DNA of 22,761 nucleotides from a virus: the IMG/VR virus record IMGVR_UViG_3300037882_004998, positions 1 through 22,761 of that record. One strand, given 5' to 3'. This document shows positions 309 to 21,800 of this stretch, in pieces. A program made the position numbers and the translations under genes. The stretch's first letter is position 1; every line of letters starts with the position of its first letter. A model generated the notes under the pieces. The model searched no databases. It worked only from the letters and a program-made list of their open reading frames with translations, and was not told the DNA's origin.

Positions 309-815
309 ATGTTAATGACTATTTCAGACTACTGCGCTCAACGCAACGTCTCAAAACAATTCGTGTATGAGTATATCCGCAAAGGCAAACTCACGGTATT
401 AGAACTGCCCACTTTTGTGGAACTCAACGGCGAGCGCGTCACTTTGGGTATGCAAAAAATGCTCGACGTATCGGAGACACTTGCTCCGAAGGTGAAGGAC
501 TCAAAAGCCTTAGCGTCTCTCGACACCCCCCTCAGTAAAGAGGCGTTTGTTTCGGAGTTGACGGACAATCCGTATCTACACGCTTTTTATGTCAAATACC
601 TTTCAATGGAAGGCAAAGAAGCAAAAAAGGCAATGAAATCGGCATTTTATGCTGAAATAGATGCGCTGCCAAACGGCACCGAAATCCGTGACGAAATAGA
701 CGAAGTGAACTTGAAAATGATGCAGTATATGCGGAAACAGGGCAGCCAAATCAAGGCCGTTTTAAACGAGGATAAAGTTGCTACACAAAAAGAACTGGTT
801 TCGGCTTTGGCATGA
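309..815 (+). CDS. Helix-turn-helix phage protein, 168 aa
   Basis: Residues about 4-30 read as an excisionase/MerR-type winged HTH: ISDYCAQRNVSKQFVYEYI then RKGKL, the usual pattern in which a recognition helix precedes a Lys/Arg-rich wing. The rest is mostly helical and charged, with a conserved-looking core YLHAFYVKYLSMEGKEAKKA and no catalytic motif. The start may be ATG 309 or ATG 315, two codons later. The position just upstream of the packaging genes fits a DNA-binding regulator or a packaging accessory protein, but the sequence does not decide between them. The gene carries an exact copy of the iterated CCCCTCAGTA motif (526-537, read as Pro-Leu-Ser). A strong terminator follows at 839. 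Confidence 0.7.
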   Translation: MLMTISDYCAQRNVSKQFVYEYIRKGKLTVLELPTFVELNGERVTLGMQKMLDVSETLAPKVKDSKALASLDTPLSKEAFVSELTDNPYLHAFYVKYLSMEGKEAKKAMKSAFYAEIDALPNGTEIRDEIDEVNLKMMQYMRKQGSQIKAVLNEDKVATQKELVSALA

Positions 816-838
816 ATCAGATTAAATTAACAGTTTGT

Positions 839-876
839 GCCGTCTCAACCTCAACTGTGTTGAGACGGCTTTTTTT
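839..876 (+). terminator. Intrinsic terminator of cassette A
   Basis: A perfect 11-bp stem (839-849 with 859-869) is followed by T-rich 870-876. It ends the HTH gene unit and abuts the TGTCC element of promoter A. Confidence 0.9.
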
Positions 877-877
877 A

Positions 878-913
878 TGTCCGTACCGAAGCCATTGCTC
901 ACCGCCATCTTTG
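878..913 (+). promoter_or_regulatory. Cassette A promoter: TGTCCG, 32-nt phase, CATCTTTG
   Basis: TGTCC starts at 878 and the TTTG of the -7 box CATCTTTG starts at 910, a 32-nt offset shared by all six cassettes in the window. It drives the packaging unit. The ATG at 918 lies only 5 nt past the box, implying a leaderless or nearly leaderless transcript. This copy lacks the CCCCTCAGTA motif in its spacer. Confidence 0.75.
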
Positions 914-917
914 CAGC

Positions 918-1580
918 ATGAATCTAATCGAGCAATGGTTTGTCAAAAAAGACTTTTATGAAGGGGTGGCGTTGCTGCAAGGTTGTGGCATAGATGCGAC
1001 TACGTTTGAACCCTATCTGAACGAAAGTTTTATACCCCCTCAGTATAAAGCTGCGTTGGAGGCGTGTCTGTCTTCAATTAGTCCTGCCTTGCTCTCTCAA
1101 CCTAAAACTTCAAATGTAGTCGTCCAAAGACCTATTTTTTCCGAAAATGATGCAATTCAAAGTCTGCGACAAGAAGCCATCGTTTTGCACAAACGACATG
1201 CCGACCGACATGCACAATTGCATGTCTTGGAGTCGGCTGAGTTGCGATTGCCTATCATTTTGGAGATTATGGAAAATATTATCCCTGCACTCGACGAAAT
1301 TTACGATGTTATTCGGAATGGCGGTATTCGTAAAAACTTGCCGCATACTGAGGGGGGAGAGCCGAGTTTGGATTATCGCCAAGGGATTCAAGACGGTTTT
1401 CAACAAGCACAAAAATTGGGTTATCTGAAAAACCGTATTTTTAAATTATCCTCTCAAAATGGCTTTATAAACAAGGCAAAAGACCGCGATGAGAAACTGA
1501 AATTTGAAAAAGAATTGATACAAAAACAGACTGAACGCAATGCCCTGTGCATTGAGTTAGGTATAACCGAAAACGAATGA
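918..1580 (+). CDS. Unknown protein upstream of the terminase, 220 aa
   Basis: The N-terminus reads IEQWFVKKDFYEGVALL, a W-x5-(D/N)-(F/Y)-x-x-GV-x-L pattern of a kind I associate with genes beside terminase in Bacteroidota phages, though I cannot name a family. The middle (about 75-135) and C-terminus (about 165-215) are strongly helical and probably coiled coil. There is no membrane segment. The next in-frame Met is far downstream, so ATG 918 is the believable start, only 5 nt after the -7 box. The stop overlaps the next gene's start as ATGA (1577-1580), suggesting translational coupling. It contains two copies of the iterated motif in opposite orientations (1035, 1346). A packaging or DNA-binding accessory role is inferred from context only. 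Confidence 0.75.
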   Translation: MNLIEQWFVKKDFYEGVALLQGCGIDATTFEPYLNESFIPPQYKAALEACLSSISPALLSQPKTSNVVVQRPIFSENDAIQSLRQEAIVLHKRHADRHAQLHVLESAELRLPIILEIMENIIPALDEIYDVIRNGGIRKNLPHTEGGEPSLDYRQGIQDGFQQAQKLGYLKNRIFKLSSQNGFINKAKDRDEKLKFEKELIQKQTERNALCIELGITENE

Positions 1581-2206
1581 GTGAAACAAGTAAAGATTTT
1601 AGTAAAAAATTACTGCAACGTGCGCCTTCGGGCAAGCTCTCCATAAATGGGCGTGACGAGGCTTTGACCAACATTCAAGCATTTTATGAAGACCCGGAAA
1701 ATGTCGTTTTACCTAAACATCAAGAGTTGATTAGGCAGCGATGGGAAACCGTGCATGGGCTTTTTCTGAAAGGGGAGAGTGAAAAACGAATTTGTAAAAA
1801 AATAGCTACCCTCTACGATGTCTCAGAAAGCACAGTTCGTCGAGACTTGCAAGATGCAGACATGGTTTTTGGTAGTCGAAAACTGCCTTTTGAAATTCGC
1901 CGCCAACGGGCCGTAGATATGACCTTGGAGGCTTACCGCCGCGCAAGAAAAGATAAAGATACAAAGGGCATGAACGCAGCCATCGCCAACCTTATCAAAG
2001 CGGATGGTTTAGAAAAAGAGCCTGTCGAATTGCCTTTTGAGAAGATGGAAGCGCATATTTTCATTATTGCTTTACCCCCGCAGATTGAAGCGCAATTAGA
2101 TAAAGTTTTTCCCATCCACGATGGGCGTATTGACCTCAATCATTTTTCAGAAATAGACATAAAACCAATAAAATATGCAGACAGCGAAGACATCACCCCT
2201 CAGTAA
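1577..2206 (+). CDS. Terminase small subunit-like HTH protein, 209 aa
   Basis: Residues about 55-95 form a homeodomain-like HTH (LKGESEKRICKKIATLY then DVSESTVRRDL), the usual DNA-recognition arrangement in small terminases, followed by a helical segment rich in Arg/Lys. Small terminases bind the packaging site and regulate the large subunit. The assignment rests on this HTH and on lying directly upstream of, and overlapping by 32 bp, the terminase large subunit gene. The start forms an ATGA overlap with the preceding gene. The C-terminus ends ..DITPQ, where the last codons and stop coincide with an iterated CCCCTCAGTA motif (2196-2205). A general HTH regulator is the alternative. Confidence 0.75.
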   Translation: MSETSKDFSKKLLQRAPSGKLSINGRDEALTNIQAFYEDPENVVLPKHQELIRQRWETVHGLFLKGESEKRICKKIATLYDVSESTVRRDLQDADMVFGSRKLPFEIRRQRAVDMTLEAYRRARKDKDTKGMNAAIANLIKADGLEKEPVELPFEKMEAHIFIIALPPQIEAQLDKVFPIHDGRIDLNHFSEIDIKPIKYADSEDITPQ

Positions 2207-3824
2207 TTTGCAGATGGAGGCAGATGATTTAAAGGCTGAAATTGCCCGTCTGCATCACTTCAATAAATCAGATTTTCAAACACTTTTGCGGCAATCGAAA
2301 GCGGTAAAACAATTAAATTATAATATAGCCCAAATTGTTAGCCGTCGAAATTGGACAAATAAAGATTATCAAATCATCTATGATAGATGGGGGCGTGGTA
2401 CAGGCAAAACGACAAGCATTGGCGGCAAATTGGTCTATATCGCACAGACGATGCCGAGATCTGTCGGTATTTTTATTGCGCCCTCATATAAGTTCCTGTT
2501 GACGCGGATTATTCCATCTATAGTGAATGGTTTGGAAATGCACGGCTTTCATCAAGGTTTGCACTATTTCATAGGTGAAAAGCCACCACGTTCTTGGAAA
2601 TGGGAAAAACCGTATCAACCACCTTCGGATTTTTCTAAGTTTATTTGGTTTTATACAGGTTTTGGGATGCACTTGATTTCTCAGGATGTGCCGGGCGATG
2701 GGCGAGGCTTGAATATAGATATTGAAGTCGGGGATGAATCGGCATTGTTGGATTTTGCCATTATGGAGGAATGTACGACTCCAACACTGAGGGGGTCAAA
2801 AATTTCGGAATTTAAAGACAATCCACTTTTCCGAAAGCGTTTCCATCATTCTTCGATGGCTTTGACCGATGTAGGGAAATGGGTTTTTGATTTGGAAGCG
2901 AAAAACTTGATGGGTGAAAAATCGGCACTCATCATTGATGCAAGTTGCAAGGTCAATTTGCACAATTTGGCAGATGGTTATCTCGATGATGCGCGGCGCA
3001 CGTCTTTATCTGATATTATTTTTGATGCAGAGTATATGAACATTCGACCATCAATGGCGGGTGCTGATGGCTTTTATTCTTTGTTTAAAGAAAAAGTGCA
3101 TGGCTATCGCGCACAGGACAGAGCCCAATATGCTGCAAAAGATAATTGTCAAGCCGATTCCGATTTGGTGCAAGGCGTACCCTTGTTGATTGGTGCGGAT
3201 TTTGGTTCGGCAGTTAATTTTTTGGTTGTCTGTCAACATGTGCGTTCAATTAACGAACTTCGCGCCATCAATGAGTTTTGGGTACGCTCGCAAGAGCAAA
3301 AGATGCAAGACGATGCGTTTGAGGCATTTAATCAATATTATTTACCACATCAAGGAACTTGTAATGAGATATTTTTATGTTATGATAAAACAGGGAATGT
3401 CGAAACGGGCAATACGCGTAAAACGAGAGCCGAACAAGCTCAAATATATTTGCAGGAACGTGGGTGGACAGTGCGTCTGATGTCGGTCGGGCGCAAGAAT
3501 GCAGACCACTCATTTAAATTTAATTTGTGGGAAAAAATATTTCAAAACTCATTGTCCAAGTTGGTTTATAGAAATCTTCCTATCTTTCGGATTAATATTT
3601 TGCGTTGCCGTATTTTGCTGATTTCGATATACAATTCAAAGGCAAAAGAGGGTAGAAGAGGGGAAATTCACAAGGATAAAACCATAGAGGCAAAATTGTT
3701 GAGAAAAAACGAGGCAGAAAAATCAACGCATGGCTCCGATGCGTTGGATACCATACCCGAGGCATTGTTTAGCGACATTTTGCGTTTCGGGAATATGGGT
3801 TTACCTGATGCTTCCGTCAGATAA
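2175..3824 (+). CDS. terL: Terminase large subunit (packaging ATPase/nuclease), 549 aa
   Basis: This is the motor that translocates DNA into the prohead and cuts it. The Walker A motif is GRGTGKTT at about residues 73-80. Walker B is IDIEVGDE at about 181-188, with the catalytic Glu after Asp. The C-terminal RNase H-like nuclease shows LLIGADFGS (Asp about 342), LCYDKTGN (Asp about 403) and HGSDALDT (about 519-526), which supply the acidic metal-binding set. Length is normal for the family. ATG 2175 overlaps the small subunit gene by 32 bp. A second in-frame ATG at 2214, 7 nt after that stop, is a credible alternative that would remove 13 residues. It is the last gene of unit A, followed by a terminator at 3864. 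Confidence 0.93.
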   Translation: MQTAKTSPLSNLQMEADDLKAEIARLHHFNKSDFQTLLRQSKAVKQLNYNIAQIVSRRNWTNKDYQIIYDRWGRGTGKTTSIGGKLVYIAQTMPRSVGIFIAPSYKFLLTRIIPSIVNGLEMHGFHQGLHYFIGEKPPRSWKWEKPYQPPSDFSKFIWFYTGFGMHLISQDVPGDGRGLNIDIEVGDESALLDFAIMEECTTPTLRGSKISEFKDNPLFRKRFHHSSMALTDVGKWVFDLEAKNLMGEKSALIIDASCKVNLHNLADGYLDDARRTSLSDIIFDAEYMNIRPSMAGADGFYSLFKEKVHGYRAQDRAQYAAKDNCQADSDLVQGVPLLIGADFGSAVNFLVVCQHVRSINELRAINEFWVRSQEQKMQDDAFEAFNQYYLPHQGTCNEIFLCYDKTGNVETGNTRKTRAEQAQIYLQERGWTVRLMSVGRKNADHSFKFNLWEKIFQNSLSKLVYRNLPIFRINILRCRILLISIYNSKAKEGRRGEIHKDKTIEAKLLRKNEAEKSTHGSDALDTIPEALFSDILRFGNMGLPDASVR

Positions 3825-3863
3825 GGTTTTGAAGTCCCTTACGGGATTTGTTTATACACGGTT

Positions 3864-3892
3864 AGGCATGTCTGCAAAGACATGCCTTTTTT
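3864..3892 (+). terminator. Intrinsic terminator of cassette B
   Basis: A perfect 10-bp stem (AGGCATGTCT/AGACATGCCT, 3864-3873 with 3878-3887) with loop GCAA runs into T6. It ends the terminase unit. Its stem-loop is closely related to the one at 13093, sharing CATGTCTGCAAAG. Confidence 0.92.
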
Positions 3893-3895
3893 CAT

Positions 3896-3931
3896 TGTCC
3901 GAAATACCCCCTCAGTATTGTCCCAAATTTG
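3896..3931 (+). promoter_or_regulatory. Cassette B promoter: TGTCCG, 32-nt phase, CAAATTTG
   Basis: TGTCC starts at 3896 and TTTG at 3928, 32 nt apart. An exact CCCCCTCAGTA (3907-3917) fills the spacer, and TTGTCCnAAAT occurs twice, at 3895 and 3918, as a 23-bp-period direct repeat. It serves the lysis cassette. Confidence 0.75.
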
Positions 3932-3973
3932 CAGTCTAATTCATATTTTCATTCACAAAAACAAAGTATTGAG

Positions 3974-4105
3974 ATGACAAAAGAACTCACCGAAATCGTG
4001 GACAAGGCACAAGAGACGATTGAATCAGCAAAAGGGTTTTGGGCTTGGTTTACTCAAACATCCGTTGGCTTATGGGTGCTTTCTAAATTTAAAAAAAATG
4101 CTTGA
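3974..4105 (+). CDS. Small ORF at head of lysis cassette, 43 aa
   Basis: ATG follows an A-rich leader 42 nt after the -7 box of promoter B, and the TGA overlaps the muramidase start by 8 nt. The first half is acidic/amphipathic (LTEIVDKAQETIESAK). The second holds a short aromatic, hydrophobic stretch (GFWAWFTQTSVGLWVL) followed by a basic tail (SKFKKNA), compatible with a membrane-associated peptide. Position as the first gene of a lysis cassette suggests a role in lysis (pinholin- or regulator-like), but I recognise no family. Translational coupling to the lysozyme through the overlap is the clearest argument that it is translated. Confidence 0.5.
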   Translation: MTKELTEIVDKAQETIESAKGFWAWFTQTSVGLWVLSKFKKNA

Positions 4106-4691: not shown

Positions 4692-4712
4692 ACTTTTAAA
4701 TCAGTTAAAAAA

Positions 4713-4829
4713 ATGATGAATAACGCAAAGCGTGGCGGCTGGACAAACGATGGTGGATATGTTTGGGTCGGCACGCAACAAATCGCCACAAATGGAAAAT
4801 ACATCTGTCGTCACACAAAAACAAGGTAA
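4713..4829 (+). CDS. Small ORF between lysozyme and holin, 38 aa
   Basis: It begins with a double ATG after a Bacteroidota-style A-rich leader (TTAAAAAAATG) and ends 4 nt before the holin ATG. The product is Gly/Asn/Thr-rich with aromatic residues (GGWTNDGGYVWVGTQQIATN) and a basic end (ICRHTKTR). There is no membrane segment or known motif. The tight spacing and good leader suggest it is translated and may couple holin translation, but only context supports it. Reading the holin frame upstream from 4732 instead would need a non-ATG start inside this ORF, which is less likely. Confidence 0.4.
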   Translation: MMNNAKRGGWTNDGGYVWVGTQQIATNGKYICRHTKTR

Positions 4830-4833
4830 TAAC

Positions 4834-5298: not shown

Positions 5299-5314
5299 CA
5301 TATTGAAAACTTTT

Positions 5315-5377: not shown

Positions 5378-5387
5378 TCAATAATCC

Positions 5388-5888: not shown

Positions 5889-5912
5889 AAACCATTCTTC
5901 CATATTTTTCAG

Positions 5913-5943
5913 AAAAGGGATGCTCCCAAAAGCATCCCTTTTT
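5913..5943 (+). terminator. Intrinsic terminator of cassette C
   Basis: A perfect 12-bp stem (AAAAGGGATGCT, 5913-5924, with 5931-5942) with loop CCCAAA runs into a T-tract. It isolates the gene at 5388 from the head unit. Confidence 0.92.
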
Positions 5944-5946
5944 CAT

Positions 5947-5982
5947 TGTCCGAAATACCCCCTCAGTATCTTACCAACTTTG
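5947..5982 (+). promoter_or_regulatory. Cassette C promoter: TGTCCG, 32-nt phase, CAACTTTG
   Basis: TGTCC starts at 5947 and TTTG at 5979 (offset 32). An exact CCCCCTCAGTA lies at 5958-5968. The ATG at 5988 is 6 nt after the box, implying a leaderless or nearly leaderless mRNA. Confidence 0.75.
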
Positions 5983-5987
5983 CACCC

Positions 5988-6458
5988 ATGACTAATTTCG
6001 CCACAGATTGTTCACAACCGAATGTCGTCGGTCTGCCTACGGTTGAGTATATCTCAACCGTAGGCATTGACACATTCAAGATATTTGAGTTGAGTGATGG
6101 TCGGTTGCGTGGCACAATTAGCTTGAAGCCCTATCTAAAATGGCTTTCGATGCCCTTGCGCCCATTAGACTCTGATAAACAATTTTGGGACGAAAACGGT
6201 AGTTTGACCGCGCAAGGCAATCTTTTTTCGGCAAAAGTGCAGGGTATCCTACCGATGATGTCGCCACAAATTCAGTCACAATTGGACGATATGGAACGAC
6301 AAACTTTCATTGTCCGAATACAAGACCTCGCAGGTCGCAAATTTGTACTCGGAAGTGTTAAATTTCCTTTGCATTTTACGTCATCGTGGAACTCGGCAAA
6401 AGGGTTCCATACAGTAGAATGGGCAGGGAAGCAACCGCATAAAGCAATAGGTTACTAA
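5988..6458 (+). CDS. Unknown small virion-region protein, 156 aa
   Basis: First gene of the head unit. The predicted content is mainly beta (VEYISTVGIDTFKIFEL, then FIVRIQDLAGRKFVLG and FPLHFTSSWNS), with no membrane segment or enzyme motif, as in small tail-tube or head-tail joining proteins. The start is ATG 5988; an upstream in-frame TTG (5946) lies inside the promoter and is rejected. The next Met is some 50 residues in, so the near-leaderless start is forced. The coding sequence contains a perfect 14-bp hairpin at 6034-6066. The stop is 5 nt before the protease gene. Function is unassigned; a structural protein is the best guess from position. Confidence 0.72.
   Translation: MTNFATDCSQPNVVGLPTVEYISTVGIDTFKIFELSDGRLRGTISLKPYLKWLSMPLRPLDSDKQFWDENGSLTAQGNLFSAKVQGILPMMSPQIQSQLDDMERQTFIVRIQDLAGRKFVLGSVKFPLHFTSSWNSAKGFHTVEWAGKQPHKAIGY
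6034..6066 (+). promoter_or_regulatory. Strong hairpin inside the 5' end of the coding region
   Basis: A perfect 14-bp stem (TGCCTACGGTTGAG, 6034-6047, with 6053-6066) closes a 5-nt loop TATAT. It begins about 46 nt into the gene and has no T-tract, so it is not a standard terminator. It may stabilise the mRNA, bind a protein or modulate translation of the unit's first gene. Confidence 0.6.
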
Positions 6459-6463
6459 ATATT

Positions 6464-7534
6464 ATGGCAAAAAGTAAAATCATATCGGAGCCTAAAAAGC
6501 TCTATGTTCAAAAGGCGGGTACAGAAGCAAGCGTGTTTCTGTATGGGCTTATTGGTGACTGTTACGCTGAGGATGCGGACAAAAATATCACGGACTTGGA
6601 TTTCATCAAAACGCTTGAGGAACTAAAAACTCAGGGTGTGATAGATGTGCATTTGCGTATCAACAGCCCAGGTGGTTATACGTCCGATGGTTTGGCTATC
6701 ATTACTTCTATCAAAAATAGCGACTTGAATATCCACACTTGGAACGATGGTCGCGCTTACTCGATGGCAGCCGATATTTGGTTATGTGTGCCTGTTGAAC
6801 GCCGTCACATGTCCAAAAATTCGTCATTGATGATTCACGCGCCTTCGACGGGTTGTTATGGTACTGCGAAGGATATGCGCGAAATGGCAGACCAATTGGA
6901 TACCATCGCGGAAGCAACAATTCAAATGATGGTAGAAGCAACTGGCAAAGATGCAGAAACTATCAGAAAGGAATTTTATGATTATGCCGACCATAATTTG
7001 ACCTATCAACAATGCGTCGAATATGGTCTTATCAACGATGACGGCAGCAATGGATATGCCACCGAAGTCACAAAAACCAAAAACGAGCCGATGAAAGCGG
7101 CTTTTTTCAAATATGCCAGTCAAAAACGCGCTTCTATAAACAGAAGCGACGACAATAACGACGATTCACTTAATAAAAACAACGACGACATGACGACAGA
7201 AGCCTTGAAGCAGGCATTCGCCGACGGCACGCTCAACCTAAGCGATGTCGAGACTATCATTGCAGAAGAAAAAGCGAAGCAACCCCTCAGTACAGGTGTT
7301 GTAAAACAACTTATTGCAGAAGCTGTTGCACCTTTTAGAGCTGAAAATGACGCTTTGAAAGTCCAAATTGACGAATTGAAACTTCGTACTTTGGGTACAC
7401 CTCCACCGCCAACGGGAGGCAGTAGTGCCGAGTCGGATAATGATCCCGACCAAACCAAAAAGTCCGCAGAAATGGAAGCCTTCGAGCGGCGAAACACGGA
7501 GTACATCCGACAAGTGCAAACAGGGCAGGTGTAA
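6464..7534 (+). CDS. ClpP-like prohead protease fused to scaffold domain, 356 aa
   Basis: Residues about 20-195 are a ClpP/S14-type serine protease: LRINSPGG (oxyanion loop, about 64-71), GRAYSMAAD with nucleophile Ser100, SLMIHAPS with His125, and a terminal YADHNLTYQQCVEYGLI in which Asp176 would complete the triad. Such enzymes process scaffold and capsid during prohead maturation. A low-complexity Asn/Asp linker (about 228-242) leads to a helical, coiled-coil C-terminal domain (about 243-356) ending in a Pro/Gly/Ser-rich segment, typical of a scaffold. It lies directly before the major capsid gene, as in lambda-like protease-scaffold pairs. An in-frame ATG at 7190 could start scaffold alone. 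One iterated motif (7283) encodes Pro-Leu-Ser. Confidence 0.88.
   Translation: MAKSKIISEPKKLYVQKAGTEASVFLYGLIGDCYAEDADKNITDLDFIKTLEELKTQGVIDVHLRINSPGGYTSDGLAIITSIKNSDLNIHTWNDGRAYSMAADIWLCVPVERRHMSKNSSLMIHAPSTGCYGTAKDMREMADQLDTIAEATIQMMVEATGKDAETIRKEFYDYADHNLTYQQCVEYGLINDDGSNGYATEVTKTKNEPMKAAFFKYASQKRASINRSDDNNDDSLNKNNDDMTTEALKQAFADGTLNLSDVETIIAEEKAKQPLSTGVVKQLIAEAVAPFRAENDALKVQIDELKLRTLGTPPPPTGGSSAESDNDPDQTKKSAEMEAFERRNTEYIRQVQTGQV
7190..7534 (+). CDS. Possible nested scaffold protein (internal start), 114 aa
   Basis: Met243 of the protease gene follows an AT-rich stretch (TTAATAAAAACAACGACGAC) resembling the leaders of other genes here, and lies exactly at the linker/scaffold boundary. In lambda, Nu3 scaffold is made from an in-frame start inside the protease gene C, so an equivalent product is plausible. 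The predicted product is helical with a heptad region (FRAENDALKVQIDELKL) and a flexible acidic end. The sequence only shows a suitable codon and context; expression is inferred. Confidence 0.4.
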   Translation: MTTEALKQAFADGTLNLSDVETIIAEEKAKQPLSTGVVKQLIAEAVAPFRAENDALKVQIDELKLRTLGTPPPPTGGSSAESDNDPDQTKKSAEMEAFERRNTEYIRQVQTGQV

Positions 7535-7536
7535 GA

Positions 7537-7602
7537 CCCCCCCCCTCAGTAAAAAAGCATTTTTTAAACGCCTTCTAAACAGGCAAATAAACACAAAAAC
7601 TT
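7537..7602 (+). promoter_or_regulatory. Major capsid leader, copy 1 of a duplicated leader
   Basis: This leader shares CCCTCAGTAAAAAA, GCATTTTT and AACGCC in the same order with the leader at 9064-9125, and both genes then begin ATGGCTTTAG. It starts with C8 of the iterated motif 2 nt after the protease stop. An A-rich/T-rich pair around GCA can form a short weak hairpin. It probably supports high translation of abundant virion proteins. Confidence 0.5.
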
Positions 7603-8595: not shown

Positions 8596-8598
8596 AAA

Positions 8599-8649: not shown

Positions 8650-8673
8650 TAATTTTTAAAAATTCAATCAAAA

Positions 8674-9063: not shown

Positions 9064-9125
9064 CCCCCCTCAGTAAAAAAAGCATTTTTGAACGCCCGAA
9101 TACGGCTTAAACATAAAAACTAAAC
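9064..9125 (+). promoter_or_regulatory. Leader copy 2 (duplicate of the capsid leader)
   Basis: It shares CCCTCAGTAAAAAA, GCATTTTT and AACGCC with 7537-7602, and the following gene starts with the same ten bases, ATGGCTTTAG. This implies duplication of the capsid-gene leader in front of a second abundant virion protein. Confidence 0.5.
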
Positions 9126-9827: not shown

Positions 9828-9866
9828 AAGGTCGTGGCACAAATAGGTGTCATGGCCTTTTTTTTT
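9828..9866 (+). terminator. Intrinsic terminator of cassette D
   Basis: A 13-bp stem with three G-T wobbles (9828-9840 with 9847-9859) runs into a T-tract to 9866. It ends unit C. Confidence 0.9.
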
Positions 9867-9868
9867 GA

Positions 9869-9904
9869 TGTCCGAACTGCCCCCTCAGTATTGTCCTAAA
9901 TTTG
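9869..9904 (+). promoter_or_regulatory. Cassette D promoter: TGTCCG, 32-nt phase, TAAATTTG
   Basis: TGTCC starts at 9869 and TTTG at 9901 (offset 32). The -7 box TAAATTTG is an exact TAnnTTTG match. CCCCCTCAGTA lies at 9880-9890. ATG 9925 follows after 20 nt. Confidence 0.8.
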
Positions 9905-9924
9905 TGCAAAAAAATTGAATCAAA

Positions 9925-10290
9925 ATGTCTGGATTCTTAGAAAAGTTTAATTTTTTCGATACAACAACTCTGTCTTGTAAAGAAGGCGATTTCTTGTTTT
10001 CAACTGATACAGAAGGGAATGGTGGTGAACCCGAAGTCGTGATTTTTGTCACACAAGATGAATTTTCATCTTATTGCCCAACTTCTGATACAGAGATTCG
10101 CCGCAAATGGGCGCAATGGCCCACAGCAAAACTGCGGGTGGCTTCGCCCGACGAAAAGGCGAAAATGATTGGTCACTACCTGACCATGTTGGCAATTGAC
10201 CAAACGCGCATTGACGTAAAGCGCAATTTTTGGGCGAATTTGTCGCTTGGCGAATTGTCATTTAGTTCATTTTTTATGGTCAAAAAATAA
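9925..10290 (+). CDS. Unknown protein, 121 aa
   Basis: First gene of unit D, 20 nt after the -7 box. The N-terminal half is acidic and beta-like (EGDFLFSTDTEGNGGEPEVV). The C-terminal half is helical and rich in Trp/Arg (RRKWAQWPTAKLRV; KMIGHYLTMLAIDQTRIDV; FWANLSLGELS). There is no membrane segment or known motif. It sits 2 nt before the next gene and just upstream of the portal, so a head-tail or portal accessory role is possible. I recognise no family. Confidence 0.7.
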   Translation: MSGFLEKFNFFDTTTLSCKEGDFLFSTDTEGNGGEPEVVIFVTQDEFSSYCPTSDTEIRRKWAQWPTAKLRVASPDEKAKMIGHYLTMLAIDQTRIDVKRNFWANLSLGELSFSSFFMVKK

Positions 10291-12040: not shown

Positions 12041-13054
12041 ATGGCTCAATTATTTAGTAATATAGAGGAGTTTCGTGCTTCTGGTGGCGCGGTTGACAAC
12101 GACGAGGCGATGTTGGAAAGCATCGAAGCGGATATTGATGCGGCGATAAACGAGCATTTGCGTCCATGGCTCGGTGATGACTTGACGGATAGTATGATTG
12201 ACGCTTACCCTGATGCGGTAGCCCCCCTCAGTATTTTGACCACAAAAGTACAAGTTGCACTTGCCCCTTTGAGCCTGTTTCATGCGGCAAAAACGAAGAA
12301 TATTCGTTTTAACACTGCGGGTTTGGTACGCCCCGAAAATGTGCCGTTCCGTTACCAAGAGAATGACTACAAAGAGGAAATGTTGGTTAGAGGGTATGAG
12401 TCTATCGAACTTTTGCTGAAATACTTGGATAAAAACGCGGCGAGCTTCACGAATTGGGATAAAAAGAACAAACACCGTAGCTTGTTTTTGCGCTATGCTT
12501 CTGATTTTCGAGATGCTTCATCGCATCGTTTATCGCGTTGGACTTTTGAAAACTTACGGGCCATCATTGATGATGTCGAGTTTTATGCGATTGAAAAATT
12601 ATTGCCAAAACAATTTTTTAATCGTTTGAAAACGGGCATGGGATTGACTGATAAGGAAAAAGAGGTTGTGCGGTTGATTCATAAAGTGATTGCTAATTTT
12701 ACAATTGAGGAAGCGGTTAGAAGGAACCGGGTGCAAATCAATGGCGGTAATATTTTTAATGTTTCAGAAACAAGTGAACAGGCGAGTCAAACGCGCCGCA
12801 CAGCCGACCCCCTCAGTATTGAGCGCACAGCAACATATCAGAATTTGGCAGCTGATAGGAATGTGGCACGTTTGAGGGCTTTTATTGAAGCGAATAAAGA
12901 TGGTTTGGGCTTGTGTTTTCATGTTTCCGTGAATGGTTTGAACGCCGATACAGACGCATGGGGATACGTGCCACCACCTAAAACGGATATTGAAATACAA
13001 ACCGCTTATGAAGTAATAGAACTAATGAAGCAACGCCGAGTTGTCTCTCTATAA
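12041..13054 (+). CDS. DUF6712-like head-tail connector candidate, 337 aa
   Basis: The N-terminal 150 residues resemble DUF6712 proteins of Bacteroidota phages: an early LFSNIEEFRASGG, a helix ending HLRPWLG, a helical stretch TTKVQVALAPLSLFHAAK, a short ISFNTAG-like turn (IRFNTAGLVRP), and then GYESIELLLKYLDKN. That family is usually near portal and connector genes, suggesting an adaptor role between head and tail. The C-terminal half (about 150-337) is a helical, Arg-rich segment with low similarity to anything I recognise. Two exact iterated motifs (12222, 12808) both encode PLS. A terminator follows at 13093. Confidence 0.62.
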   Translation: MAQLFSNIEEFRASGGAVDNDEAMLESIEADIDAAINEHLRPWLGDDLTDSMIDAYPDAVAPLSILTTKVQVALAPLSLFHAAKTKNIRFNTAGLVRPENVPFRYQENDYKEEMLVRGYESIELLLKYLDKNAASFTNWDKKNKHRSLFLRYASDFRDASSHRLSRWTFENLRAIIDDVEFYAIEKLLPKQFFNRLKTGMGLTDKEKEVVRLIHKVIANFTIEEAVRRNRVQINGGNIFNVSETSEQASQTRRTADPLSIERTATYQNLAADRNVARLRAFIEANKDGLGLCFHVSVNGLNADTDAWGYVPPPKTDIEIQTAYEVIELMKQRRVVSL

Positions 13055-13158: not shown

Positions 13159-13170
13159 GGGCAAAAAGAC

Positions 13171-13749: not shown

Positions 13750-15326
13750 TTACTCTTATTCAAGAACCTTCTGCCCTGGGATTTGCTCAACACCCACAAT
13801 TCTACCGTTTACGTGCAACGCATGATGATGGGCGTTCTTTTGTCGGGCGGGGCATGTCGCAGAGCATCGCCTTAGTTGAGGTGGACGATGTTTTACCAGG
13901 GGCGAATATCAATATCTCAGTTACGGAAGTGGGAAGCGCACCGTACTCGATACTGTTTGATATTGTCGCAACGCCGACACATGACCAACACTTGCCGATT
14001 TACGAACAAGACCCGAACCCACCGCGTCCAGTAGGTAGTTTTGAGGGTTATTATCAAGACATAGCGCATCGTATGAGCCGCGCTCATTTGTTGTCTCCTA
14101 CACTTCAGGTATTTTTTAATTATGATGCAGTAAATCATATATCTACGATTAGTTTCGTAGCTCGTGATAATGCAACAGTATTTGAAATTGAAGTCGAAAG
14201 CCTTTCTAATGCGACTGTTTTGGCTGTTGTCCCTGCGATTGCATCCTCAAAGCTTCCGAATTATGCGATTGTTTACGAAGTCGTTTCGGAAGCGAGTTAT
14301 AAAACAGGCATCTTTCACTCAGAATTTAGGGGTGTTGTAAATCCTTCTGATGTAGATGGGATGGCAAATGTCAATTTACAGAATATTTTAACCGCTTTTG
14401 CTGATTCTTCTCGGTGGACACCGCCTAATTGTATTGCACCTGTGGCGCATCGCGCCAATAATCTTCTGCGGTATTATTGCCGTTTTGCGGAAAAATATGG
14501 CTCACCTGTTGTGCAGCATAGTTGGACTCCACCAAAAATTAAAACGATACTGAGGGGGGGGGGTTATGCTTTCTACCCTCTTTTAGGTCGCTTAAATGCA
14601 GATAGTAGCCTTTTCAATACTTTGCCTGATGACCGAGAAGTTGCACAAAATTCGCCTGAATTTTTGTCATGGTTCAATTATACAGGCGTGTTTCAGTCGC
14701 TTAAAGTGGAATGGAGAACATGGTCTCGAAATGATGGCTTAATGACAATGGGCATTAATGCGAATATTTCGCTTTACGCCGACCAAAATGAAACGCTGAT
14801 GGTTCCTGCACTGATTTTTCATGATTATCAGGAAGTGTCGGCAGCTGTTGAAGTCCGTTTATTAAATCAAGTTGATGAGGCGGTGTGTCCGTGGCGACGT
14901 TATGCGATTGACCGCCGCTTTCATGAAAATGAACGGTATTTGATGTTTCTAAATAAATATGGTGTGTTTGAATCAATGCGCTTTACTGGCGCGTTGACGG
15001 TTGGTGTAGAATTGGATCGGCGTGAATCGCAACGCTATACTGATGGTATGGTGGAGGTATTTGAGTTAGAAAAGCGGTGGCGTAGGTCGTTCACATATCG
15101 CACAGGCTATTTGAGCAAATCGGAAAGTTTGGCTTTGGAAAACTTGGTGGCGAGCCGTTATGTTTTTGAGGTGTCCACTACTGAGGGGTATATTCCTTTG
15201 CGAATATTGGATACGAAAATCTCACTCGATGATGGTAAACAGGAGGTCTATTCATTAGAAATTAAAGCTGCACCGCAGTTAGATTATTATGGTGTGGTGG
15301 CATCGGATTTGTGGCTCAAATGGTAG
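13746..15326 (+). CDS. Large tail protein (distal tail/baseplate candidate), 526 aa
   Basis: The protein is beta-rich, with an N-terminal segment FAQHPQFYRLRATHDDGRSF, many short strands and Thr/Ser-rich loops, and a C-terminal region QEVYSLEIKAAPQL. Its size, composition and location before the hub-like gene fit a distal tail or baseplate protein; I cannot name a family. The coding sequence includes a run of ten G residues (14554-14563), part of an inverted-orientation iterated motif and encoding Arg-Gly-Gly-Gly. This run is long enough for slipped-strand errors that would truncate the protein at about residue 270. Another motif copy is at 15179. Confidence 0.65.
   Translation: MITLIQEPSALGFAQHPQFYRLRATHDDGRSFVGRGMSQSIALVEVDDVLPGANINISVTEVGSAPYSILFDIVATPTHDQHLPIYEQDPNPPRPVGSFEGYYQDIAHRMSRAHLLSPTLQVFFNYDAVNHISTISFVARDNATVFEIEVESLSNATVLAVVPAIASSKLPNYAIVYEVVSEASYKTGIFHSEFRGVVNPSDVDGMANVNLQNILTAFADSSRWTPPNCIAPVAHRANNLLRYYCRFAEKYGSPVVQHSWTPPKIKTILRGGGYAFYPLLGRLNADSSLFNTLPDDREVAQNSPEFLSWFNYTGVFQSLKVEWRTWSRNDGLMTMGINANISLYADQNETLMVPALIFHDYQEVSAAVEVRLLNQVDEAVCPWRRYAIDRRFHENERYLMFLNKYGVFESMRFTGALTVGVELDRRESQRYTDGMVEVFELEKRWRRSFTYRTGYLSKSESLALENLVASRYVFEVSTTEGYIPLRILDTKISLDDGKQEVYSLEIKAAPQLDYYGVVASDLWLKW
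14554..14563 (+). repeat. Homopolymer G10 in a tail gene (possible contingency tract)
   Basis: This is the longest C/G run in the window and the poly-G arm of a TACTGAGGGG motif. A gain or loss of one G shifts the reading frame of the tail gene. Confidence 0.75.
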
Positions 15327-15397
15327 TCTCTCCTCCCTCAGTAGCGACTTTTTTGTTGAAAAAAATTTTTCACAAATAGTTACTTCATATATTCACT

Positions 15398-15405: not shown

Positions 15406-15459
15406 TTGTTAGAAATTTATTTTTCACAATGCTTCCTTTTTTTTATAAAAAAAATTACG

Positions 15460-17277
15460 ATGGCTTTTCAACTCTATTTTTTTGATACACCTGTTAATCT
15501 TGACCCTGCATCGAGTTTGTCACTCAACTTTGTTTGCCCCGCTTTCGACGATGATAGTGCAGAACGGGCTTATTCGCTGCCTATTCGCTTGCCTTTGACA
15601 GCTGATTTGCAAACACTTTTGCAGCATCGACAACGACTTGATGCACAAGAGACTGGTGATAGTCTTACCGCAAAGGTTCAAGTCGAAAGTGTAGATTTGG
15701 CAAGCGGTGTATATAAATTGGAAAAATCGCCACGCGGTTATTTGGACGGACATTTTGAAAATAATGCCCGGGCAAATTTGGCAAGTTTGGCGCAATGGAA
15801 ATTGAAAAGTCTATTGCCAACGATTGATATAGAACAAAGCATCCCTGCAAAGTGGTATCTGCAAGTGCGCCCACAAAACTTGGCAACAGGTTATGCCGTT
15901 TCGATAGACGACACAGATTATTCAAGTAATACGGGGCCCGCTTTGCGCGATGCGATTAATAATCGCATCGGCGAAACAGTCGCTTTTTGGAATAGTGCGA
16001 CGTTGAATGTCGAATTGTCACCACCTTCAAATGGTCGCTCATTCAAGATTTATAATCCAATACCTTACTACAATGGTATTACGCTTGTTAGTACATCGCA
16101 CACCCCTATCAGCGCACAACGGGCGAGCTTTTTGGGCTTTGTGCAATCGTCCCTCGTGCAACCGCGTGAAGATTTGAGTTTTGCTATGATGCAAAATGAC
16201 AAGCTCTATGATGGGAAAAACCCGCTTTGGTCGGGGCTTATTAATTTTGCAGAATATTTCACGGATGACAATGCCTGGCGTGTTGGTTTTTCAAATGAAA
16301 CGGATACTCAGGGGTTTGAGCATACGATAGATGAAACGGCTTGGCGATATACTTATGTGCCATTTGTGCGGGTGTCTTATATTTTGAAAAAGATTGCAGA
16401 AAAGATGGGGGTATCTGTTGTCAATGGTGAACTTGGGGAGTGGTCGGAGTTGATGACGCTGTTGGTGTATAATGCGAAGTCGTTGGACTCTGTGCAACAG
16501 GCATACGAGTTCAAAGAACTAAAATACACGAATGGTTATGCTAAAAAAATCGTTTTGGGCGAACATGTGCCTGATATGTCGGCTGCGGAGTTTTTGTCGC
16601 AGTTTTGTGAAACGTATAACCTCTGGTGGCAAATAGAAGATGAGCGTTTGGTATTCCGCAAAAAAGATGCTTTACTGAGGGGGGCATCGGCACGTGATTG
16701 GTCGGCTTTTATTGTTGCGGGAAGCGAAGAGCGTGGTTTCAAGTACGAAAAAGGCTTGCGTTTTTCGTACAAAACGGACGAGAGCGATACGGCGACACAA
16801 TTCGCCGCTTATACTGAGGGTGCTGGTGGTGAGTTAATTGAGTTGCCAACCGCTACACTTTCAGATCGGGTGTATCAAGATGTGGGAAAAGAGACCTGTT
16901 ATGCCGAGCAGGTTCGGAATGATGCTGTTGGTGTTTTGCGTTTTATGTTTGATAGAGGGCGACATGCAGAATATGCTGGGAGAGAATACCAGGTGACGGC
17001 GAGCCGTGCGCGATTGGGTGTTTTGAGTTTAGTACCCCCCTCAGTATTTTTGGCTTTTTGGCAAGAATCGGCGCGATACAGGGCAAAGAGTTGGTATTTC
17101 TCGGCTTCATTTAATTTGCCTGTCTCAGAATTGCGGCAGGCTTTGGTGTGGCAATATGCGATGCGGCGTATCGAAACGCCGAATGGGTCTATCGAGGCGG
17201 CAATCAATACGATTGAAGTGACCGAGCGTGTGCAAGGTTTATCAACTGTTAAGATTGAGTTTTTTGTAAAAAATTAA
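15460..17277 (+). CDS. Tail hub/baseplate-type protein, 605 aa
   Basis: ATG 15460 follows an A-rich leader (TAAAAAAAATTACG); the longer frame reaching back to 15289 overlaps the previous gene and is rejected. The N-terminus is MAFQLYFFDTPVNLDPAS. The middle of the protein holds VPFVRVSYILKKIAEKMGV and then VPDMSAAEFLSQFCETYNLWWQIEDE, the latter typical of tail hub modules of the gp27/gpD type that bind the tail-tip spike. The C-terminal part is beta-rich. Four exact or near-exact iterated motif copies fall in this gene (16673, 16812, 17035 and a one-mismatch form at 16305). It lies upstream of the tape measure gene, the reverse of the usual order. Confidence 0.66.
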   Translation: MAFQLYFFDTPVNLDPASSLSLNFVCPAFDDDSAERAYSLPIRLPLTADLQTLLQHRQRLDAQETGDSLTAKVQVESVDLASGVYKLEKSPRGYLDGHFENNARANLASLAQWKLKSLLPTIDIEQSIPAKWYLQVRPQNLATGYAVSIDDTDYSSNTGPALRDAINNRIGETVAFWNSATLNVELSPPSNGRSFKIYNPIPYYNGITLVSTSHTPISAQRASFLGFVQSSLVQPREDLSFAMMQNDKLYDGKNPLWSGLINFAEYFTDDNAWRVGFSNETDTQGFEHTIDETAWRYTYVPFVRVSYILKKIAEKMGVSVVNGELGEWSELMTLLVYNAKSLDSVQQAYEFKELKYTNGYAKKIVLGEHVPDMSAAEFLSQFCETYNLWWQIEDERLVFRKKDALLRGASARDWSAFIVAGSEERGFKYEKGLRFSYKTDESDTATQFAAYTEGAGGELIELPTATLSDRVYQDVGKETCYAEQVRNDAVGVLRFMFDRGRHAEYAGREYQVTASRARLGVLSLVPPSVFLAFWQESARYRAKSWYFSASFNLPVSELRQALVWQYAMRRIETPNGSIEAAINTIEVTERVQGLSTVKIEFFVKN

Positions 17278-17286
17278 AATTTCAAT

Positions 17287-18228
17287 ATGGTTTTAAATGA
17301 TTCTGAATACAATCAAAATGTCGTACAAATTTTAGGGCATACGATACTTGTGCCTAAAACGTGGAACGACATGACTTTAAAGCAACAAATCGTGTGCAAC
17401 GATGTCTTAATGTCGTTGAATGATGCGACATTTGTGCAGAAACGGATTGCTTTGATGCAGTTTTTAACGGGCCTGTCTGATGAGTTTTTCATCAGTTGGA
17501 AAAAGATGTATGACGATGCGGAGCTTTGGGCGGAAAGATTTAGGAAATTGACAGAATTTGTAACTGATTTCCTGTTTGAACAAAAACAAACTGCCGACGA
17601 GCGCGAGCAGTTTGGTATAGCGGCAACCTTGACCAAATGCCCCTACCCCTCAGTCATTTTGGCGAAAAAACGCAAGGGTAAAGACCCGAAACCCATAAAA
17701 TTGTGGGCAGCATCGGACGGATTGGAAAATATTAGTTTTGCAGAAATGGCAGAGGTGTTTACTTGTTTTGACCGTTACACGGCAGGCGGCAACGAGGCGC
17801 ATATTCATCGTGCATTTGCAGTGGTGTTTCGCCCATCGAAGCCGAATGATGCAGCAAATAAGCAACGAGCATTTGATGGGGACCAGCGCACAGGGTTGGA
17901 AGAAGCAGATGAGGTGATTGCACAACGAGCTAAATTGTGGCAAGATGTGCAGCCACCGATTAAGCGGTTGTTGTGGTTTTGGTTGGTAAGCTGTCGGGAG
18001 CAGATAATCAGGAAGAATCCGCAAGTATTCAAAAGTGGCAATGCTGATGCTTTGATGCGGCGATTGGCTGTTTACTCATGGGCAGGTGTGGCGATTGAGT
18101 TATCGAAAGGCGATGTGTTGGCGCGAAAGGCGATTGAAGTATCAAACTATCGGGATATTTTTATCACATTGTCGTATCTCGAAACTAAATCGGAGGTGAC
18201 GGAAGCGATAATGAAAAAAAAGAATTAG
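17287..18228 (+). CDS. Tail assembly chaperone candidate, 313 aa
   Basis: Mostly helical, charged protein, starting MVLNDSEYNQNVV with ILGHTILVPKTWNDMTLKQQ, which resembles the opening of tail assembly chaperones in Bacteroidota phages. The central region is Lys/Arg-rich with a loop rich in Asp/Asn, and the end is helical. Its place two genes before the tape measure supports a chaperone role, but no family is confirmed. The last codons are ATG AAA AAA AAG AAT TAG, an A-AAA-AAG slippery-like sequence; a -1 slip would add only ten residues, so biological frameshifting is not clearly supported. Confidence 0.52.
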   Translation: MVLNDSEYNQNVVQILGHTILVPKTWNDMTLKQQIVCNDVLMSLNDATFVQKRIALMQFLTGLSDEFFISWKKMYDDAELWAERFRKLTEFVTDFLFEQKQTADEREQFGIAATLTKCPYPSVILAKKRKGKDPKPIKLWAASDGLENISFAEMAEVFTCFDRYTAGGNEAHIHRAFAVVFRPSKPNDAANKQRAFDGDQRTGLEEADEVIAQRAKLWQDVQPPIKRLLWFWLVSCREQIIRKNPQVFKSGNADALMRRLAVYSWAGVAIELSKGDVLARKAIEVSNYRDIFITLSYLETKSEVTEAIMKKKN

Positions 18229-18261
18229 GATTTGTAGGATTTTTAAAGATTTAATAGGATT

Positions 18262-18684
18262 ATGGGCGAAGATTCACCAATAGAAACAGCAATTCAGACG
18301 ATTAAAGACTGGACTGGCGACACAAAAGAGATGCTCCGTGCGCGTGCGCCATCATTGACGGGGGCTGGTGCTAAAAGCATTAAGGGCAAAGTGAAGCTGC
18401 GAAATTTAGAGCCTTATGCCGTGGGCTTTAATTTTGAGAGGTATATCGATTGGGTTGATAAAGGCGCGAGTAGAGGGCATGGCGGCACAAAAGGCTCTAC
18501 TTGGTACAATAAAAAAGGAGATAAAAAACGGACGAATCCTGAGAGTTTGCGTAAAATGAACTCGGGAAATCGGCTTGCTGAACCATTTATAGATGCGGTC
18601 ATTACTGAGAGGTTGCCCATTTTGGCGGGGCTTTTGGCGAAGGAGTTGGCTGATTCGGTAGTTCGATTTGCTACAATGCGATAA
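18262..18684 (+). CDS. HK97 gp10-like tail completion candidate, 140 aa
   Basis: The N-terminal half is helical (ETAIQTIKDWTGDTKEMLRA), followed by a beta segment with a conserved-looking YIDWVDKGASRGHGG, a basic loop (KKGDKKRTNPESL) and the end NRLAEPFIDAVI, a pattern like the C-terminal RPFLRPA segment of HK97 gp10-type proteins that close the head-tail interface. This family normally lies among connector genes, yet here it is directly upstream of the tape measure. The ATG follows a leader of TAGGATTT-like repeats (18226-18260). Confidence 0.6.
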   Translation: MGEDSPIETAIQTIKDWTGDTKEMLRARAPSLTGAGAKSIKGKVKLRNLEPYAVGFNFERYIDWVDKGASRGHGGTKGSTWYNKKGDKKRTNPESLRKMNSGNRLAEPFIDAVITERLPILAGLLAKELADSVVRFATMR

Positions 18685-18697
18685 TATTCAATTGATT

Positions 18698-18766
18698 ATG
18701 AAAACGGCTATAAAAAAAACTTGGCAAAGTTTTTTACGAATATTCAAAATGGCTGAAAGCTGGTGA
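18698..18766 (+). CDS. Tiny ORF before the tape measure unit, 22 aa (doubtful)
   Basis: ATG follows an AT-rich leader; the product MKTAIKKTWQSFLRIFKMAESW would be a basic amphipathic helix. Its stop lies inside the left arm of the terminator at 18756, so translation would interfere with hairpin formation. It may be a leader-peptide-like element or chance. Confidence 0.2.
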   Translation: MKTAIKKTWQSFLRIFKMAESW

Positions 18767-18789
18767 CTGCGAATCATCAGCTTTTTTTT
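18756..18789 (+). terminator. Intrinsic terminator of cassette F
   Basis: An 11-bp stem with one wobble (18756-18766 with 18774-18784) runs into a T-tract to 18789. It ends the unit containing the gp10-like gene. Confidence 0.9.
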
Positions 18790-18790
18790 G

Positions 18791-18826
18791 TGTCCATAAT
18801 GAGGGGGTATTTCAGTTGGAACTTTG
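18791..18826 (+). promoter_or_regulatory. Cassette F promoter: TGTCC, 32-nt phase, GAACTTTG
   Basis: TGTCC starts at 18791 and TTTG at 18823 (offset 32). The spacer carries the iterated motif in the opposite orientation with one mismatch (ATAATGAGGGGGTATT, 18796-18811). ATG 18850 follows after 23 nt. The -7 box starts with G in place of T/C and is the weakest of the six. Confidence 0.65.
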
Positions 18827-18849
18827 AGCAAAATTTTAAACACAAAGAC

Positions 18850-21800
18850 ATGGCTCAAAGTACGGCGACCATTTACATTAATGGTAAGGAAGTAGATAAT
18901 ACACTCAAAGGACTCACCGCAGAAGCTGCACGGCTCAATGCAGAACTCAAACGGGTTGAACTCGGTAGCGAAGAATTTGCTACAAAAGCAGAAGCCTTAC
19001 GCAAGGTGGAAGCGATAATCGTTGACCAACGAAAGGCTTTGAGGGAGTATGCAGACTCTTTCAAAGCAGCTACGCCTGTGGTAGAAGGTTCGATTAACCA
19101 ACTCAAAACAAAGCATACTGAATTGCTCAAGGAGTTGGAGAATCTGAAACGTGGCACATCAGAATACACCGCAAAACTCAAAGAGGTCGGTGCATCAGCG
19201 CAAGAGATTAAGAAAGTAGATGCTGAAATTGCGAAAATCTCAAAAACGACAGAGGTTGCATCTAACTCACTGTTGAAGGTAGCGGGTGTGATGGCGGCGG
19301 CATTTGTGGCAGATAAAATCGTGTCGGCGGGGACTCATATTGGTACGTTGGTGATTGAATACCAAAATGCGGCGAGTAGCCTATCTGCCATAACGGGTGT
19401 AACAGGCGAAGAATTGCAGAAGTTAGAGGCTCATGCAGATGGCTTAACGACTATCATACTGGACAATGGGAAGAAGATAACAAATGCTTCTGCGGACATT
19501 CTAAAAGGCATGAAGTTGGTTGGCTCTGCCAAACCAGAGTTATTGAAGTCGGCAGAAGGTTTGTCGGAAGTGACTAAACAGGCGATTATTTTGGCTCGCG
19601 CCGCAGGGCAAGAAGTACCCGAAGCGGTGACAGATTTGACGACTTTTATGAATCAGTTTGAACTGGATGCAAGTAATGCAGCAAGGGCTATCAATGTTTT
19701 GGCGGCTGGTTCAAAAGAAGGTGCGGCAGAGATTCCAGATATTTCAGCAGCCATAAAAGAGTTTGGTGCGGGTGCAAAATCAGCAAATGTAAGTATAGAG
19801 GCATCTGTCGCCTTGGTAGAAGTATTGGGTGATAAGATGATAAAGGGAGGTGAAGCGGGTACTAAACTGCGAAACATTTTGATTGCCATCAAGGCCCCAG
19901 AAGGATTGGATAAGGAAGCAAGAAGGCAGTTGACGGAGCATGGTGTGAGCTTTGATGTACTGAGGGACAAAACGAAGTCACTTGGCGACAGATTGACAGA
20001 GTTGGCGAAGATACAGGGTGATGCTAACGCATTGGTTCAGGTATTTGGCAAGGAGAATGTAACAGCCGCAGAAGTTTTATTGACCAATATTAATCGCTTC
20101 AAACAGTTAGAGAAAGCTGTGACTGGCACAAATGAAGCCACAAAGCAGGCGGTGATTATGTCGGACAACTTAGGGAATGACATGAAAGTAATGCAAGATG
20201 AAGCGAACAATGCGGCATTGAGCTTTGGACAAAGATTAGCTCCAGCGGCGCGGTCATTGGTGCAAGGATTGACGAATTTACTGAGGGGGGTAAAAGAGAA
20301 TTGGGAAACGATTGTGTTGTTTGGAAAGGCTATTGGTGTTGCTGCGGTGGCATTGTTGACTTATTTGGCAACTGTAAAAGCGGTGGCGATTTATAATCGG
20401 TTGGCGGCGGTGGCTACGGCGTTTTATCAAGGCGTAGTCTTGGTGATGACGAATGGACTGGCGGCGGCGGCGGCGGCGCAACGGATTTTGAATTTTGTGA
20501 TGTCTATCAATCCGATTGGTGCGGTTATAAGTCTTGTGACTTCATTGGCGGCGGCTTATGCCATGTTTTCTAATACTGTAACGGATACCGTTAGAGCGCA
20601 AAGATTAGTGAATGAAGTAAATAATGAAGCGGCGAAAAGTATTGTTGAGCAAAAGTTAAAATTAGAACAATTGCTCAAAACGGCAAAAGATGAAAAAAGG
20701 TCGAAAGATGAACGGATTGATGCTATCAAGAAACTGAATCAGCTGTCGCCTGAATACTTAGGCAATTTGACCTTGGAGAAAATCAATACTGAGGGAGCTA
20801 CCGAGGCTGTAAACAAATATGTGTCAGCATTGGAGAAAAAGGCGAAGTCGGAAGCGGCGTTGCAAAAACGGACAGAATTAGAGAAGCAGTTGATGGACTT
20901 AAATAATGGACAAACGGATACGTCTGCGGGTATTTTACAGACAGTTGGAAATAGTCTATTGTCGGCGGGCAATGGATTTAGCTTTGCTGCGCGACAAGCA
21001 GAAACATCACTGAAAAATGCGGATGATGCTCAAAAACGGATACAAACGCAAATAGATGCAGTTAATAAATATGTAGAGAAAAATCAGATAGATTTTTCTC
21101 CTACGCCATCAAAATTGAATAATGCGACAGCTGCCCCGAAAATAAAAGATGCGGAAAAAGCAGAAAAAGCAGCAGAACGGGAATTGAATAGAGAGGAAGC
21201 AAAGTTGCAAAAGTTGAAAGATGTTTTGCAACAATATCATAACGATGTTGACCAACTGAACAGCAACCACGATGCGGCAGAAGAAATACGGATACGAGAG
21301 AAGTATGAGAAGCAAATAGCGATAGCGAAGGAGTTATTAGAGTCAAAAGATGTGAGTATTCGGACGGCAGCCAATGCCGCAATTATTGAACTACAAGGGC
21401 TTGCAGAATCAGAGATTGAAGCACAGCAAAAGAAGCATCTACGGGATTTGGAAAAAAGTTTGGTCAAACATCAGGAAGATGTGGCGGCTCTTGAAAAGAA
21501 GGACGATGAGGTGAAATTGACGAATATTCGGCAGAAGTATGCGAAGGAGTTGGCGGAGTTAACCTTATTGGAAGGGAGTAAGAAACTCGATGTTGCAAAA
21601 AAAGCGGCAGAGGATAAAATAGCCTTGGAAACTGCACTGAATGCTGAATTAGAAGCTGAAACAGATAGATTCAATGATGCTCAAGAGCAAAAGTTGATAG
21701 TCGAATTGGATAAGGAGTTGAAAGCAAGGTTGAAAGCAGAGGAGGATTATTTGAGCTTTACGGGTCAAAATGAAGCTCTTGAATTGTTACAATTGGAGGA

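Follow-up and report, generated by a model that had tools for sequence, protein, structure and literature searches.

A 12-base word iterated in a tailed phage and in a Saprospiraceae genome is a candidate uptake-type self-recognition sequence

By analyzing a 22,761-nt stretch of viral DNA (IMG/VR virus record IMGVR_UViG_3300037882_004998; "the window" hereafter means this whole stretch), which encodes a tailed phage with a terminase, a ClpP-like head protease, a tape measure protein, an endolysin and a holin, we found that a 12-letter word, MCCCCTCAGTAW, recurs throughout it at the density found in one bacterial genome, the uncultured Saprospiraceae metagenome-assembled genome MAG-358 (JAEUUP01). 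Since the word matches features of the uptake signal sequences (USS) and DNA uptake sequences (DUS) of other bacteria and is carried by phages, we judge it most likely to be a DNA-uptake-type self-recognition sequence of the lineage with MAG-358 as type genome, copied into the phages of that lineage. We see this reading, which comes from genome analysis, as having about an even chance of being right.

Over-representation of the word in the window

Between 529 and 20795, the window holds 21 copies of the 9-mer CCCTCAGTA (0.92/kb; 13 on the + and 8 on the − strand), 17 of them being exact CCCCTCAGTA and 4 the 9-base core only, so that our recount returned the numbers of the original prediction. 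No other 9-mer or 10-mer is as over-represented in the window, from which the reversed control word is absent. With one mismatch allowed, we counted 29 copies, whereas 100 dinucleotide shuffles averaged 0.59 and never exceeded 3. The original prediction had also named codon-preserving shuffles as the means to disprove it, but these never came near the 17 copies observed in genes, whether codons were shuffled within genes (mean 0.67, maximum 4) or resampled globally among synonyms (mean 0.37, maximum 3). The claimed spread over several reading frames and intergenic DNA is borne out by the positions of the sites (Table 1). Among the literature titles listed, we found no paper reporting this word as a genomic repeat, and our search likewise turned up no uptake-like motif for Saprospiraceae.

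A bacterial genome filled with the same word

When the 18-base form was sought in 84,980 genomes, 16 of the 23 matches fell in MAG-358. This 7.3-Mb genome carries 6,920 copies of CCCCTCAGTA (0.95/kb), divided into 3,463 forward and 3,457 reverse, and only 3 copies of the reversed control word. The 9-mer is found 7,068 times, that is 0.97/kb against 0.92/kb in the window. Given the same density in a bacterial genome, the phage shares a genome-wide word of host type rather than having a system of its own; the host-wide signal is thus the alternative that holds among the two that a count on both strands of the host genome was expected to separate. A word private to the window phage is ruled out by the ~7,000 copies in MAG-358. 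Among the 298 genomes of the family that we searched, MAG-358 alone exceeds background, and in the 4.7 Mb of its sole genus-mate the 9-mer occurs 8 times. The host is represented here by this one metagenome-assembled genome, possibly incomplete, of which ~1.1 Mb was examined base by base with crude calling of open reading frames (ORFs). Comparing the window with MAG-358 for a phage or spacer match, we found that the similarity is mainly the motif itself, and we infer from the motif only that the host of the window phage is MAG-358 or a close relative.

In samples of 12–20 kb from 16 genomes of the family, no other such word was evident at 1/kb. Repeats are present in the samples of two family genomes (G302 and G286), and that of the genus-mate (G058; for instance L176, L187 and L197) has clustered short CCTATGTG(T/AAC) repeats. 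A ~40-bp element of the window, GAATTAGGATTTGTAGGATTTTTAAAGATTTAATAGGATT (18222–18261), has dozens of copies in G058, many of them paired in inverted orientation; the MAG-358 sample showed none.

Along the host DNA the copies are under-dispersed (coefficient of variation of spacing 0.89; variance/mean 0.57 in 5-kb windows), with 45 spacings below 200 bp compared to 122 expected. The 8 pairs less than 50 bp apart are all in opposite orientation. No motif-free gap exceeds 5.5 kb in 800 kb, one masked stretch excepted; a 14.8-kb masked (N) stretch lies at about 16897–32227 of contig C24 of this assembly (G010). On contigs of up to 160 kb, with the origin not located, orientation was not biased by contig (heterogeneity chi2 6.1, 10 degrees of freedom), GC skew or gene. 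Such a balance rules out a strand polarity of the word, and the strand distribution gives no support to the Chi-like role suggested in the original prediction.

The density is 0.87/kb in genes and 1.4–1.75/kb between them, most copies still lying in genes, where they use five of the six frames, the sixth being one that would create a stop codon. At 70 sites compared with orthologues of the genus-mate, the word mostly substitutes variable residues without gaps, which rules out a mobile word that inserts itself. A terminator or promoter role was likewise rejected, as the sites favour neither convergent, divergent nor tandem gaps between genes and a TAnnTTTG promoter element overlaps only 18 of 1,000 sites. 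Two short contigs with 91–95% identity and a ~4.3-kb insertion difference (L123 and L124; G010:C10 and C11), perhaps strain variants within MAG-358, keep both shared, aligned motif sites intact.

Other phages carrying the word

The terminase of the window is closest to those of Flavobacteriia phages, e.g. of Polaribacter and Cellulophaga, two Microcystis phages being the exception. By scanning 2.9 million viral contigs for a 14-base extension of the word, we found four dense contigs (28 copies in 36.8 kb, 14 in 42 kb, 32 in 42.3 kb and 6 in 8.3 kb), none of which contains the reversed word, together with dozens of others having one or two chance copies. Two further scans yielded a fifth dense contig (18 copies in 17.9 kb). 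The motif thus occurs at 0.35–1.0/kb in five extra phage contigs, and all six, window included, have the same word and the same flanks. As the dense contigs were all found via the motif, phages of the same host that lack it would be missed.

Several of these contigs are distantly related to the window phage, and one with ~1 motif/kb (IMGVR_UViG_3300037309_000133; L364/L282) showed no protein similarity to the other motif phages at 1e-5. Because phages without detectable homology and a bacterium share the word, neither the packaging target nor the phage-private system proposed in the original prediction is supported. Long motif-free gaps are few in the phages; one contig (G002) has the motif at only 0.35/kb and gaps of up to 6.7 kb. 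In homologous phage proteins (23–42% identity) the word is absent from the aligned positions, an outcome that the original prediction would have taken against the motif. It reflects only site turnover, because the relatives carry comparable copy numbers elsewhere.

Anatomy of the word and of its flanks

From 750 host sites, the consensus is [AC]C-CCCTCAGTA-[TA], i.e. [AC]CCCCTCAGTA[TA]. The run of C has 4–7 letters in 97% of the host sites and at least 4 in 98%, and A or C precedes CCCC in 96%, hence the word as we write it, which is not palindromic. The poly-C arm thought to vary from 3 to 10 is therefore mostly chance, the extra C being partly random. Perfect copies dominate in the host (984 vs 128 with a single mismatch), where near-misses at inner positions number 29 vs 21 for the reversed-word control. 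Near-misses are more frequent in the phages, with 43 single-mismatch against 110 perfect copies, and this laxity would be expected of a word driven by the host.

On both sides of the word, AT content oscillates at 10.6–10.8 bp in phase with it. The power of this periodicity was 96 upstream and 210 downstream of 740 sites, compared to 3.5 and 19 at 465 positions with the same strong/weak pattern, and positions of the same genome matched for the near flanks failed to reproduce the phasing at 24–56 bp (0.061 vs 0.008). The phasing is seen in genes regardless of their orientation, in intergenic DNA and in the phages. The phase-lock fades smoothly over ~130 bp on each side, showing no edge at ±66 bp. 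The centre of symmetry of the flanks can be placed only to within half a turn. A 10.7-bp AT periodicity also exists genome-wide in MAG-358 and could explain the far tail of the phase-lock.

Sites in the window

The sites of the window are listed in Table 1. Three of them fall in copies of a ~45-bp element, TTGTCCGAAATAC-CCCCTCAGTA-TTGTCCTAAATTTGCA (3880–3950, 5930–6000 and 9850–9925), located upstream of or at gene starts. This element resembles Bacteroidota promoters (TTG ... TAnnTTTG), and the motif lies in what would be their spacer.

Table 1. Copies of the word in the window, with strand and surroundings
Site	Position	Strand	Context
CCCTCAGTA	529..537	+	gene 309-815, read as P-L-S
CCCTCAGTA	1037..1045	+	gene 918-1580, read as P-P-Q-Y
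CCCTCAGTA	1346..1354	-	within gene
CCCTCAGTA	2197..2205	+	overlap of a gene end (T-P-Q-stop) with the next gene start
motif site	3909..3917	+	intergenic, inside ~45-bp repeated promoter-like element
motif site	5960..5968	+	gene start; second copy of ~45-bp element
CCCTCAGTA	7284..7292	+	ClpP-like head maturation protease gene
motif site	7543..7551	+	intergenic, long C run
motif site	9067..9075	+	intergenic
motif site	9882..9890	+	intergenic; third copy of ~45-bp element
CCCTCAGTA	12225..12233	+	gene for DUF6712 family protein
CCCTCAGTA	12810..12818	+	within gene
CCCTCAGTA	14548..14556	-	within gene
CCCTCAGTA	15179..15187	-	within gene
9-base core only (TCCCTCAGTA)	15335..15343	+	
CCCTCAGTA	16673..16681	-	within gene
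9-base core only (ACCCTCAGTA)	16812..16820	-	
CCCTCAGTA	17038..17046	+	within gene
9-base core only (TCCCTCAGTA)	19958..19966	-	tape measure gene
CCCTCAGTA	20279..20287	-	tape measure gene
9-base core only (TCCCTCAGTA)	20787..20795	-	tape measure gene

Comparison with uptake sequences

The genomic hallmarks of USS and DUS have been listed by Redfield and colleagues (PMC1626085). By checking them in MAG-358, we found the expected density, orientation, spacing, inverted pairs, intergenic enrichment, excess of perfect copies and phased flanks. Like the word described here, the Pasteurellaceae USS (AAGTGCGGT and ACAAGCGGT) occur at ~1/kb, unoriented and regularly spaced, with more perfect than mismatched copies, enrichment between genes, AT-rich phased flanks and presence in the phages of their hosts. 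Indeed, HP1 of Haemophilus and S1249 of Aggregatibacter have 17 USS in 32.4 kb and 19 in 43 kb, respectively (~0.5/kb), so that carriage by phages is normal for such words. Our word differs in its unrelated sequence, in its phylum and in its longer, two-sided flanks, as well as in its restriction to one genome of the family and in the lack of a detected type IV pilus ATPase in MAG-358. The Neisseriaceae DUS (GCCGTCTGAA, also in a 12-mer form) are likewise non-palindromic words of 10–12 bases found at ~1/kb in both orientations, but they have no flanking AT motifs and are read by the pilin ComP. The cyanobacterial HIP1 (GCGATCGC) shares the very high iteration in genes and intergenic DNA; in contrast, it is a palindromic octamer, tied to methyltransferases and widespread in its phylum, and Anabaena phage A-4L, which we checked as the single representative of phages with a HIP1-type host, contains none. 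Thus, the likeness to uptake sequences drawn in the original prediction extends to their genomic hallmarks, while that to HIP1 stops at density.

If the word is an uptake-type sequence, a surface or periplasmic DNA receptor would favour the DNA that bears it, and DNA of siblings would be taken up, then recombined via the ComEC route. Such an uptake bias could accumulate and maintain the word across the genome, the molecular drive that has been proposed in Haemophilus and Neisseria. By exchanging DNA with the lineage, or by being taken up themselves, its phages would gain the word and need no system for it. In MAG-358, and likewise in several relatives, comEC adjoins a ComEA-like ORF with four HHH. 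Bacteroidota are known to transform naturally using ComEC, DprA and ComF, and in a Riemerella transposon screen the genes essential for transformation were not recognised pilus genes (PMC8459023). Also, a preference for self DNA has been described in R. columbina, without a convincing motif to explain it (PMC7965970).

Several observations weigh against an uptake sequence. Sharing across a genus or family, another of the hallmarks, was not found: the genus-mate and the 297 other family genomes stay at background, whereas known USS dialects extend over genera or families. Moreover, orthologous proteins of MAG-358 and the genus-mate have a median identity of ~51%, so that the word may have had either a long or a short time to spread. 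Known USS and DUS systems rely on type IV pili, and no PilB/PilT-type ATPase scored above the Pfam cut-off in MAG-358, which may be incomplete. The phasing, two-sided and reaching beyond ±60 bp, exceeds the two 3' AT tracts of USS. A more specific version, which we put forward tentatively and regard as somewhat less probable than its opposite, is a Bacteroidota self-recognition without type IV pilus, in which a receptor would read the 12-bp word with its long phased flank and which would have filled the genome and its phages within a single genus-level lineage.

Alternative readings

The flanks could instead mean that the word is the centre of a site favoured by a DNA-wrapping protein, notably DNA gyrase (whose site here would be this lineage's equivalent of the Mu strong gyrase site) or a nucleoid protein that wraps DNA, with cells and phages both needing regular sites. 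The E. coli gyrase motif is a symmetric 130-bp motif with a 10.75-bp GC periodicity at −63 to −17 and 20 to 66 (PMC6379681). The flanks of our word resemble this motif and the Mu strong site in the 10.7-bp period of their AT/GC phasing and in its presence on both sides; its reach, a gradual decay over ~130 bp per side, agrees less clearly. Near-flank matching did not reproduce the phasing, and the regular spacing and phage carriage fit as well. However, the centre of the E. coli gyrase motif is degenerate while our core is nearly fixed, and we know of no gyrase site with such a 10-base core. A binding site should have a relaxed consensus, whereas degenerate copies are nearly absent here; the smooth fall in amplitude without a ±66 bp edge and the half-turn ambiguity of the centre also argue against it, and GyrA and ParC of MAG-358 are of ordinary length (open frames of 873 and 908 aa). 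Taken together, we consider a wrapping site unlikely, although it is the strongest of the alternatives. A signal of Chi type for recombination or against degradation, which AddAB/RecBCD-type enzymes would read and phages would carry for protection, is improbable in our view. Chi sites are also short words over-represented in some phages, and the high density and the carriage by at least two unrelated kinds of phages near host density would fit, but our word lacks the replication-linked orientation of E. coli Chi, is longer than known Chi sites and is lineage-restricted, being absent from relatives in which the same nucleases are expected.

The shortage of long gaps in the host and in the phages would agree with a self/non-self mark, that is, with a defence or modification system sparing word-rich DNA and thereby selecting genome and phages to keep the word, and a horizontally acquired system would fit the restriction to a single lineage. 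Yet the self-marking systems known so far rely on shorter sites that are modified, and usually lead to avoidance, the sparse contig G002 departs from this pattern, and no candidate system was identified, which leaves such a mark only a slim chance. We give even less credit to a selfish or mutational process that would write a functionless word into any cellular DNA. The sharp consensus and the lineage restriction are compatible with it, but the sites mostly substitute without length change at protein positions that tolerate it, their spacing is over-regular, and neither an insertion signature nor a longer mobile unit was found.

Significance

Uptake sequences have classically been described from two proteobacterial families, and their origin is disputed. 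To our knowledge, an uptake-type self tag is undescribed in this phylum. If MCCCCTCAGTAW is such a tag, its ~7,000 copies beside a nearly empty genus-mate would make the origin of uptake sequences directly testable among close strains. In addition, a 10-base word would allow uncultured phages to be assigned to their host. If the reader turned out to be a wrapping protein instead, the word would represent a new class of genome-wide positioning signal in bacteria.

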